Source: Methanoregula sp. PtaU1.Bin051
Lineage (GTDB): Archaea > Halobacteriota > Methanomicrobia > Methanomicrobiales > Methanospirillaceae
Length of the DNA stretch: 64,000 nucleotides
Direction: 5' to 3'
Assembly: GCA_002067895.1 (NCBI GenBank)
Contig: MVRE01000006.1
Location: 1 to 64,000, forward strand
In this document: one piece after another, positions 26,658 through 63,035 of the stretch
Position numbering within the stretch: the stretch's first letter is position 1
Layout: the number at the start of each line of letters is the position of its first letter
Notes under the pieces: generated by a model
The model's input: the letters and a program-made list of their open reading frames with translations, nothing else
What the model was told of the DNA's origin: nothing
The model's database searches: none
Translations under genes and position numbers: made by a program

Positions 26658-26754
26658 GTCCCCGCCCGGCACGACGCCAGCGAAGCCTGTTGGCTTCCCA
26701 AATCAGTCGGTGCTGATGCGACGACCGATCCTCGTCGGGTCGTGCGGCGGGCAG
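26658..26754 (-). ncRNA. candidate structured RNA element, copy A
   Basis: Read on the minus strand, the element begins CTGCCCGCC and ends CGGGCGGGG, which pair together with an inner GCACGAC/GTCGTGC stem. Inside are a hairpin CGACGA-loop-TCGTCG and a hairpin GAAGCC-AACA-GGCTTC. The sequence and the fold recur at 61906-62053 with changes that keep the pairs. It ends about 90 bases before the dCMP deaminase start, so it could be a leader of that gene or a separate RNA. Transcription is not shown. Confidence 0.55.
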
Positions 26755-26834: not shown

Positions 26835-26850
26835 GGGGGCGTTAGCCCCC
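26835..26850. repeat. GC-rich hairpin in intergenic DNA
   Basis: GGGGGC-GTTA-GCCCCC is a perfect 6-bp inverted repeat. It is preceded by GCCACAGTGGC (26824-26834), a near-continuous palindrome. It lies just after the YkgJ-like gene that ends at 26899 on the minus strand, so it may end that transcript. No T-run follows on the minus strand. Confidence 0.4.
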
Positions 26851-59898: not shown

Positions 59899-61839
59899 AT
59901 GTCCTCCTTTGAGCTCACCTCCACGTTTGCGCCGGCCGGCTCCCAGCCCGAAGCGATCGCCACGCTGAAAAAAGGGCTCGATGACAACGACCAGTACCAG
60001 ACGCTGCTCGGCGTCACGGGATCCGGCAAGACGTTTACGATGGCCAACGTGATCGCGTACGCGGACAAGCCCACGCTCGTGCTTGCGCACAACAAGACGC
60101 TTGCCGCCCAGCTGTACCAGGAGTTCTGCGACTTTTTCCCGAAGAACCGGGTCGAGTACTTCGTCTCGTACTACGACTACTACCAGCCCGAGTCCTATAT
60201 CCCTGCTAAGGACCAGTACATCGAGAAGGACTCCGCCATCAACCCCAAGATCGAGCAGCTCCGCCTCTCCGCGACGGCCTCGCTCATGCACCGGCGCGAC
60301 GTGATCGTGGTTGCCTCGGTCTCGTGCATCTACGGATTAGGGAACCCCGAGAACTTCCGGAACATGGGCTTCGAGCTCTCGGTCGGCCAGAAGATCGCAC
60401 GGAACGATATCTTAAGCCGGCTCATCGAGCTCCAGTTCGAACGGAACGATACCGAGCTGATGCCTGGACGGTTCCGGGTCAAGGGCGACATCATCGACTT
60501 CATCCCGGGATACTTCAACGACATCATCCGGGTCGAGATGTTCGGCAACGAGATCGAGCGGATCCGGGAGATCGACAAGCACACCGGCGCAAAGAAGGAG
60601 GAGATGAAGTACTTCCACGTGTACCCGGCCCGGCACTTCGTCACGCCGGAGAGCACGCGGAAGACCGCCATCGAATCGATCCGGAAAGAACTTGACGAAG
60701 TCCTCCCCACGCTCGGGCTCATCGAAGCCCACCGGCTCGAACAAAGAACGAACTTCGACATCGAGATGATCGAGGAGACCGGATCCTGCAAGGGGATCGA
60801 GAACTACTCGCGGCACTTCGACGGGAGGCGCGCCGGCGAGAAGCCCTACTGCCTGCTGGACTACTTCCCGGACGACTTTCTCATGATCATTGACGAGAGC
60901 CACCAGATGATCCCGCAGCTCCACGGGATGTATAACGGCGACCGCTCGCGCAAGAAAGCGCTCGTTGACTACGGATTCCGGCTCCCGAGCGCGTACGACA
61001 ACCGCCCGCTGAAGTTTTTCGAGTTCGAACATTACATGGGGCAGGTGGTCTTCGTCTCGGCAACGCCCGGCGACTACGAGATCAAACGGTCAGCTCAGGT
61101 GGTAGAACAGATCATCCGCCCGACAGGCCTCGTCGACCCGGAGGTCGTCGTCCGTAAGATCGAGGGTCAGACCGATGATGTTATCGCCGAGGTCAAAGCG
61201 GCAATCGCCCGGGGCGACCGGGCGCTAATAACAACGCTCACCAAGAGGCTTGCCGAAGAGCTCTCCGAATTTTTATCGGAACGTGGCGTCAAGACCCGGT
61301 ACCTCCATTCGGACATCGACACACTGGACCGCACCGAGATCATCCGCGAGCTCAGGCTGGGCAAGTTCGACGTGCTGGTCGGGATCAACCTGCTCCGCGA
61401 GGGCCTCGATATCCCCGAGGTCGGGTTTATCGGGATCCTTGACGCCGACAAGGAGGGATTCCTGCGTGACGCACGAAGCCTCATCCAGATCATCGGCAGG
61501 GCGGCGAGGAACGTGAATGCCAAGGTCGTGCTGTATGGCGATAATATGACAGACTCCATGAAGCGGGCGATTAACGAGACGAAGCGCCGGCACGACCTGC
61601 AGGTCGCGTTCAACACTAAGCATGGGATTATACCGAAAACGATCATCAAGCCGGTCAAGGAGAAGGAAGTAGACATAAAGGACACAAAGCACGTCCCGAG
61701 GAACGAGATCCCCAACGTTGTCATCGAGCTCGAGAAGCAGATGCGGGACGCGGCAGAGAGGCTCGACTTCGAAAAAGCTATCGCGCTCCGCGACCAGGTG
61801 AAAAAACTTAACGAGCGTCTCGCTGCAGCGGGAAGGTGA
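59899..61839 (+). CDS. uvrB: UvrB, excinuclease ABC subunit B
   Basis: A 646-residue DNA damage-recognition helicase of nucleotide excision repair. It has Walker A GVTGSGKT (residues 38-45), the beta-hairpin YYDYYQPESYIPAKDQYIEK, IIDESHQMIPQ and VSATPG, IGRAARN (motif VI), and a C-terminal UVR motif (LEKQMRDAAERLDFEKAIAL) that contacts UvrC. Length and motifs are complete. It stands alone here, with uvrA and uvrC outside the window. The structured element follows on the same strand. Confidence 0.97.
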   Translation: MSSFELTSTFAPAGSQPEAIATLKKGLDDNDQYQTLLGVTGSGKTFTMANVIAYADKPTLVLAHNKTLAAQLYQEFCDFFPKNRVEYFVSYYDYYQPESYIPAKDQYIEKDSAINPKIEQLRLSATASLMHRRDVIVVASVSCIYGLGNPENFRNMGFELSVGQKIARNDILSRLIELQFERNDTELMPGRFRVKGDIIDFIPGYFNDIIRVEMFGNEIERIREIDKHTGAKKEEMKYFHVYPARHFVTPESTRKTAIESIRKELDEVLPTLGLIEAHRLEQRTNFDIEMIEETGSCKGIENYSRHFDGRRAGEKPYCLLDYFPDDFLMIIDESHQMIPQLHGMYNGDRSRKKALVDYGFRLPSAYDNRPLKFFEFEHYMGQVVFVSATPGDYEIKRSAQVVEQIIRPTGLVDPEVVVRKIEGQTDDVIAEVKAAIARGDRALITTLTKRLAEELSEFLSERGVKTRYLHSDIDTLDRTEIIRELRLGKFDVLVGINLLREGLDIPEVGFIGILDADKEGFLRDARSLIQIIGRAARNVNAKVVLYGDNMTDSMKRAINETKRRHDLQVAFNTKHGIIPKTIIKPVKEKEVDIKDTKHVPRNEIPNVVIELEKQMRDAAERLDFEKAIALRDQVKKLNERLAAAGR

Positions 61840-61905
61840 AAAAAATACGCGATTGCTCAATAAGTGCAATTAAAGTGGAGATTTTCGGTAGGGGATTTTA
61901 ACAAC

Positions 61906-62053
61906 CTGCCCGCCACGCGGCCCGACGAGGATCGATCGTCGCATCAGCAACGAATGATTCGAGAAGCCATCAGGCTTTGAAGGATGAGTGGTCATCAGAC
62001 CAAGAATCCGAGAAGGTCATCAGACCTTCGAAGGCGCCGCGCTGGGCGGGGAT
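61906..62053 (+). ncRNA. candidate structured RNA element, copy B
   Basis: The element begins CTGCCCGCC and closes with GGGCGGGG at 62044-62051. Inside are a hairpin CGACGA-loop-TCGTCG (61923-61941) and three hairpins with the same ATCA loop. They are AAGCC/GGCTT (61964-61977), TGGTC/GACCA (61989-62002) and GAAGGTC/GACCTTC (62012-62029). The first and last lie in two tandem units that share CGAGAAG and TTYGAAGG. Copy A at 26658-26754 has the same plan. No coding frame is supported. No plus-strand gene follows, so a leader role is unlikely for this copy. Confidence 0.6.
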
Positions 62054-62105
62054 TCTCGTAACGGAAATCCAAACGGATTCAAATTATGCAATCACAAAAA
62101 AAATT

Positions 62106-63035
62106 TCAGGTTAACCGGATCAGGTTCTCCCGGCCTTTCTTTACTTTTACGATGATACCCCGGGAGTGAAGGTCGTTGAGCGCTGAGCTCACTGTCGATT
62201 TTGGGAGCATAAGGTTTTTAACGATATCCGACTGGAACATCTCGCCGCCTTGTGACTGGAGCAGCCCGATGATCCGTTCCTCGAGGCTTCTTATCTCGGC
62301 TTCTGACAGCATGGGAACCTGCGGCTCTTCACGTGTAAAATTGTTTTTTTTCCTGCGATAGAAGAAGAACCCGATAAAGGCGGCGAGGATTATCACCACG
62401 AGTCCGGCCGCGACCGGAATGAGCGGAAACGCCGCCTGTTCCAGCTGCACCCTCGGCTCTCCTGCTCCGAACGAGAGCTGGCCGTACCAGACCAGCCCGT
62501 CGCGCTTGGCATCTGGAGCTGGTTCTGCTGCCTGAACAGTATAGCCGTCAGGATACTGGACGATCAGCGTGTTGCCCTTTGCAAGGTACAACCCGCCTGC
62601 AAAAGCGTCACCGATGGTGAGCCGGGGGCCGGGCTCTGCAAAGCCGTCCCATCGCAGCGTGTAGATAACGACACCGTACCTTCCTGTGGGCGATGTCTGG
62701 ACGGCAGAGGTTCCCGTAACATCAGAAACCGCCATGTGGCGGCCGGTTGCGGCTGCTGCCTGTGCGGCGGACTTTTCCATTAGTTCACGGAACTGCGGGA
62801 GGTATACGGCCTGCAGGTCGCGGGTATAGGAATCGAAATCCGATAGATCGTCTTCGGTCGGGAGGAGGGTACGGTACTCCACACGCCAGAGGGCCGATCC
62901 GTCAGATAAGACGGAGATCGTGTAGGTTATGGAATAGTCCGTCACCTGCGCGGTCTCCTGTCCGCTCACCGGGAGGCAGAATGCAAGCAGGATGATTACT
63001 GATCCGGCTGCGATGATCCAGTTGTTCGTTGACAC
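62106..63035 (-). CDS. membrane-anchored protein with a C-terminal winged helix
   Basis: A 309-residue protein. It has an N-terminal signal segment (IIAAGSVIILLAFCLPVSG), a beta-rich outside domain (SITYTISVLSDGSALWRVEY), and one membrane segment (IPVAAGLVVIILAAFIGFFF). The cytoplasmic winged helix is LEERIIGLLQSQGGEMFQSD then PKSTVSSALNDLHSRGIIVK, of the DUF7343/DUF7345 type common in archaea. The topology suggests a one-component sensor that binds DNA from the membrane. Its target is unknown. Confidence 0.8.
   Translation of the reverse strand: MSTNNWIIAAGSVIILLAFCLPVSGQETAQVTDYSITYTISVLSDGSALWRVEYRTLLPTEDDLSDFDSYTRDLQAVYLPQFRELMEKSAAQAAAATGRHMAVSDVTGTSAVQTSPTGRYGVVIYTLRWDGFAEPGPRLTIGDAFAGGLYLAKGNTLIVQYPDGYTVQAAEPAPDAKRDGLVWYGQLSFGAGEPRVQLEQAAFPLIPVAAGLVVIILAAFIGFFFYRRKKNNFTREEPQVPMLSEAEIRSLEERIIGLLQSQGGEMFQSDIVKNLMLPKSTVSSALNDLHSRGIIVKVKKGRENLIRLT

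Follow-up and report, generated by a model that had tools for sequence, protein, structure and literature searches.

Is the hairpin-rich element at positions 61,906 to 62,053 of the window (the whole 64,000-nt stretch of DNA analyzed here, C6:1-64000 of a 2.31-Mb Methanoregula genome in 23 contigs) a structured RNA, or is it repeat DNA that keeps a fold? An earlier note had described it, together with a second copy, as a covarying element under selection as an RNA fold. We conclude that the feature very probably belongs to a family of interspersed palindromic DNA repeats that is specific to one lineage, Methanoregula-like archaea, and whose hairpin core is modular. Our best reading is of a MITE/REP-like repeat whose fold is real and conserved but whose behavior is that of mobile repeat DNA, not of a dedicated RNA gene.

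The two look-alike copies lie where the earlier note placed them, are homologous, and fold far better than shuffled sequences. Copy A (window 61906-62053, plus strand) has an RNA folding energy of -73.7 kcal/mol (z, -6.1), and copy B (26660-26754, previously given as 26658-26754), which runs on the minus strand relative to copy A and scores 97.5 bits with the covariance model, has a z of -3.6; in each case 0 of 200 shuffles folded as well. The opposite strand of copy A is nearly as stable as RNA (-72.3 versus -73.7), and copy A folded as DNA gives a z of -4.3. In copy A, the left arm (61906-61921, CTGCCCGCCACGCGGC) and right arm (62036-62051, GCCGCGCTGGGCGGGG) of an outer palindrome, which we call class I, enclose two modules on the plus strand. 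Module 1 comprises hairpins H1 (61929-61960) and H2 (61963-61979, GAAGCC-ATCA-GGCTTT), and module 2 comprises H3 (61982-62009, GGAT..TGGTC-ATCA-GACCA..ATCC) and H4 (62012-62029, GAAGGTC-ATCA-GACCTTC). Copy B is an outer palindrome holding a single two-hairpin module, with H1 at 26700-26731 and H2 at 26682-26697 (GAAGCC-AACA-GGCTTC), both on the minus strand. The two copies have in common the order CTGCCCGCC..CCCGACGAG..H1..GAAGCC..GGCTTC..GGCG..GGGCGGGG. The closing stems reported earlier, ACGCGGC/GCCGCGC in copy A (with one A-C mismatch) and GCACGAC/GTCGTGC in copy B, are present, as are the hairpins AAGCC-ATCA-GGCTT and GAAGGTC-ATCA-GACCTTC. The supposedly conserved CGACGA/TCGTCG hairpin did not hold up: its arms pair in both copies, but it shows 0 double changes in ten copies, below all shuffles, and TCGTCG is instead part of the long first hairpin at 61929-61960. 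Beside copy B, at 26835-26850, we also observed a hairpin, GGGGGCGTTAGCCCCC, that resembles the GGGGGCATCAGCCCCC hairpin, which is terminal in many elements of genus g5.

The test of covariation proposed earlier gave a result that exceeded all shuffles and slid controls. In a ten-copy alignment, 91.6% of cells were paired and 19 cells carried changes on both sides, versus 7.8 in shuffled and 1 to 7 in slid controls. Twenty distinct H1 sequences were retrieved independently with a DNA pattern spanning only the apex, the right arm, and the start of H2, and these contained 33 double-changed cells versus 10.9 shuffled and 1 to 6 slid. H1 combines a conserved apex, TCGC-ATCA-GC(GA), with a covarying base, whereas in H2 it is the base (GAAG/CTTC) that is conserved and the top that covaries. 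Because double changes exceeded both controls in both sets, the pairing is under constraint; the covariation is evidence for that constraint without showing RNA as the molecule on which it acts.

The copies also vary in a stepwise manner. In class I, the insert between GACGAG and GCG is 0 nt (six copies), 50 to 58 nt (eleven copies listed), or 101 to 104 nt (three copies, copy A among them). A second palindrome class, GCGAGGCCCCGACGAG^GCGGCCGAGCGA, has inserts of 0, 52 to 53, and 101 nt, and a third, CCGCGGGGCGCCCTTCGGGG^CGGCGGC, has inserts of 0 and 54 nt. These lengths indicate a two-hairpin module of ∼51 nt, of which a palindrome holds zero, one, or two copies. One module type thus occupies three unrelated outer palindromes, at a fixed site near the tip of the GC-rich palindrome and always in the same orientation, and its hairpin loops are mostly ATCA. 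Related hairpins also occur in a free array at C22 (4.1 copies of a 55-bp unit) and in pairs at C3, C8, and C17, and the pattern CGAGAAG-N-CTTCGA was found 14 times forward and 12 times reverse, versus 2 and 1 for a control pattern. At C8:12547-12617 (L060), a pair of small hairpins seems to split a reading frame whose second part lies in a different frame, possibly a recent insertion into a gene; a Pfam search there gave no domain confirming a broken gene. At another locus (L161, G198:C18:∼85850), the terminal hairpin GGGGGCATCAG passes directly into GCGAGGATTACC of a second module; from its sequence, this is a putative site of recombination located precisely at the common CATCAGC loop.

Copy A as a whole lies within a 249-bp IS1595-like miniature element (MITE; 61848-62096, plus strand), whose ends, CGCGATTGCTCAATAAG and GCAATCACA, match those of related copies at C10:∼1022 and C6:233507. 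The terminal GATTGCTCAATAAG..GCAATCAC, common to copy A, the C10 copy, and C6:2335xx, matches the IS1595 TIR. The MITE takes up the space between uvrB, which stops at 61839, and a convergent gene at 62106-63035, and from the coordinates its removal would leave these neighbors ∼10 bp apart. A complete IS1595-family IS with 24-nt TIRs (GGTGATTCCTCAATAAGATCCACC) is located at C17:115579-116488 (L077 1498-2406). Its transposase (DDE_Tnp_IS1595, PF12762, 3.6e-36) has an intact 277-aa frame with PF12762 and PF12760 and includes zinc-ribbon and DDE domains, making it a predicted trans-acting candidate. Identity to the left end of this IS is 21/24 for the C10 copy and 16/24 for copy A. Candidate 8-bp target-site duplications flank copy A, AAAAAATA at 61840-61847 (imperfect and A-rich) and AAAAAAAT at 62097-62104; they agree at 6 of 8 positions, in A-runs, and those of the two sister copies at C10 and C6:2335xx agree at 7 of 8. 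The matching ends of copy A, C10, and C6:2335xx could be taken to mean that the entire family of repeats is nothing but the interior of a single miniature transposon. We regard this as extremely unlikely: the left MITE end, at 0 to 2 mismatches, was found in only four copies besides the IS itself, most of the 13 palindromes of this genome, copy B included, lack an IS1595-like left end, and the g5 copies sit in other contexts.

Those 13 palindromes were identified by their right outer arm, which recurs across the genome with 0 to 1 mismatch in context. Outside this genome, Blastn detected copies in only two of the seven other genomes of the genus, and a public pattern scan for the minimal palindrome returned Methanoregula sp. 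RA.bin137 and a single match in Streptomyces. The search of Methanomicrobiales genomes with a covariance model, suggested in the earlier note, did yield further copies, but across 232 genomes of the order the ten-copy model placed them in just 12 genomes from 2 of 40 genera, where they were multi-copy and their distribution was patchy. The carriers belong to two related genera of methane-making archaea. Counted as lower bounds from the 18 candidates scored per genome, there are at least 13 copies in the window's own genome, at least 10 in G007, 17 in G198, 11 in G193, and 6 in G032, and lower counts elsewhere (at least 2 in G004, at least 1 in G006, and at least 1 to 2 in several other genomes). 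Searches of phage, plasmid, and viral collections found no copies, and a literature search found no description of this family in Methanoregula, an absence that is weak evidence. All 45 examined copies are intergenic between substantial genes (overlapping frames are short and probably spurious), mostly between 3′ ends, with 15 in convergent and 5 in divergent contexts.

Insertion polymorphism was assessed at a gene pair conserved in the family, glycyl-tRNA-synthetase-like and helicase-like by reading of the translations; the clean comparison of empty and filled sites rests on this one pair. The site is empty, with the genes 0 to 19 bp apart, in nine genomes (G001, G002, G004, G005, G175, G181, G190, G191, and G199), and is filled by differing elements in G000, G007, G198, G173, G188, G206-G208, and others. 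The filled gap of ∼230 to 470 bp consists largely of these palindromes, the types differ among genomes, and among G000, G007, and G198 the orientation differs too. One orthologous copy has been vertically kept (G032 L084 and G198 L092, 82.7% over 3.1 kb). The uvrB site offers no clean empty counterpart because the downstream neighbor differs or is rearranged in the window genome. In a genome of another genus (G178, L087), a different element class likewise follows uvrB, which suggests that certain gaps between genes have received insertions repeatedly. In G006 (L112), yet another palindromic insertion downstream of uvrB, with ends GGCTCTGGAGAAATC and direct repeat AAGAAGCGG, is apparently a MITE belonging to a different transposon.

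The alternative closest to the original proposal is a multi-copy structured regulatory or small RNA, either a trans-acting sRNA family or a 3′-UTR element, with the fold selected as RNA. The strong helix covariation and the conserved H1 apex speak for it, as do two asymmetries: in 30 of 37 copies, most of them chosen by the RNA model, folding favored the plus strand (p 2e-5), and in H1 G-U pairs outnumbered A-C mismatches 36:9 in copies chosen by the covariance model. Outside the RNA-model-chosen sets the bias is nonsignificant, with G-U to A-C ratios of 17:7 in Blast-found copies, hand-counted from the arms (p 0.06), and 8:2 in pattern-found copies (p 0.11), and better plus-strand folding in 8 of 12 Blast-found copies (p 0.11). 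A single-stranded DNA intermediate and RNA read-through both fit such a strand preference. In the g5-rich pattern-retrieved set, 33 double changes stood against only 2 one-sided G-U changes, which is unusual for an RNA helix. In tandem-gene contexts there was no sense bias (6 copies sense and 11 antisense), and a TATA-like box lay upstream of 2 of 20 copies, with a shuffled mean of 2.0 and hence no enrichment. That no RNA family could be named agrees with Rfam, which returned no family for the window at the gathering threshold, the best subthreshold matches being at chance level. Box C/D RNA, raised by weak sR7/sR34 matches, was rejected at scores of 13 to 14 versus cutoffs of 37 to 40. At ten further loci, nothing but tRNAs and a single ribosomal leader matched Rfam, outside the element; the latter, an eL15-Euryarchaeota ribosomal protein leader (L020 1110-1167), is ∼90 nt away from a copy. 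The evidence does not support an independent RNA element: the copies are dispersed, differ in presence between sister species, are missing at orthologous sites, and vary in their modules, they show neither gene-direction bias nor a TATA-like box, and copy A is enclosed in a miniature transposon of IS1595-like type. We therefore consider the RNA alternative improbable. What stands of the earlier claim is the compensatory change and the selected fold, and of the contrary outcome named with it, a mobile DNA palindrome without transcription, the mobile palindrome is what we found.

A preference for folding on one strand, the hairpin architecture, and the intergenic 3′-end position would suit classical REP/BIME elements, which are moved by RAYT, a Y1 transposase acting on single-stranded hairpins. 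One end of a REP element by definition bears a GTAG or CGTC tetranucleotide (PMC3733652), and the ends of this element, ..CCGATCTGCCC and GGGCGGGGACTCTCGTA, carry neither. The PF01797 protein is absent from the window's own genome and from G007, G198, G193, and G032, and was found in only 5 of 108 genomes of the family. Identity with REP/RAYT is thus largely refuted by the missing PF01797, and we rejected it as very unlikely.

The mobile-repeat reading accounts for the 13 arms in one genome, the patchy presence in 12 of 232 genomes, the polymorphism at the gene pair, the stepwise inserts in three palindrome classes, the free arrays, the IS1595 ends of copy A, the covariation, and the intergenic 3′-end position without sense bias. 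Against it, no transposase could be linked with the palindrome proper, copy A is flanked by candidate target duplications that are imperfect and lie in A-runs, and the copy shared by G032 and G198 was kept vertically; the conserved H1 apex TCGCATCAGCGA and the slight plus-strand folding preference would also fit RNA. Under the mobile-repeat reading, the IS1595 transposase would have moved copy A as a MITE, and the palindrome with its module may have spread through a hairpin-recognizing process on one strand, not driven by a Y1/RAYT enzyme, either single-stranded DNA transposition or else recombination and slippage between hairpin copies. Slippage at the short flanking CGA(C)GAGG/CGAAGG repeats at the hairpin bases probably accounts for the gain and loss of modules. 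Where transcription of neighboring genes runs through them, the hairpins may serve as 3′-end structures of the mRNA, like REP and ERIC repeats. A more specific idea, possible but rather unlikely, is an archaeal transposition system in which a ∼51-nt two-hairpin unit inserts in, or is copied inside, the tips of unrelated palindromes via recognition of a single-stranded fold, with an enzyme other than Y1/RAYT; if true, palindromic repeats would here be parasitized by hairpins nested within them.

Covariation is widely read as proving a functional RNA, and here it is strong in repeat DNA that behaves as mobile, which calls for caution in archaeal RNA discovery. A family with 0, 1, or 2 modules, three palindromes, and a copy number that varies among relatives makes hairpin gain and loss traceable, and prompts the question of which agent moves repeats of this kind in the absence of RAYT.

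Among known systems, the element resembles Rfam structured RNAs in its multibranched fold and covarying helices, and differs from them in matching no family and in lacking synteny, a promoter-like signal, and sense bias. Some ERIC copies carry inserts. Like the enterobacterial ERIC/IRU and YPAL repeats (PMC2267715), ours are intergenic, MITE-like palindromes of ∼100 to 170 bp that fold along most of their length, but sequence and hosts are unrelated and the same insert occurs in three different outer palindromes. With REP/BIME and REPIN elements (PMC3733652, PMC3116915) they share short intergenic palindromes in many copies, enrichment near gene 3′ ends, mosaic clusters, and a maintained fold; they differ in lacking the GTAG/CGTC tag and a Y1 RAYT in the genome, in their larger size, and in the stepwise number of inner two-hairpin modules. 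Finally, copy A and two to three sister copies are like IS1595-family MITEs in their IS1595-like TIRs, candidate 8-bp duplications, and a fitting transposase elsewhere in the genome, whereas the inner palindrome with its hairpin modules is a separate entity that also lives outside such MITEs.
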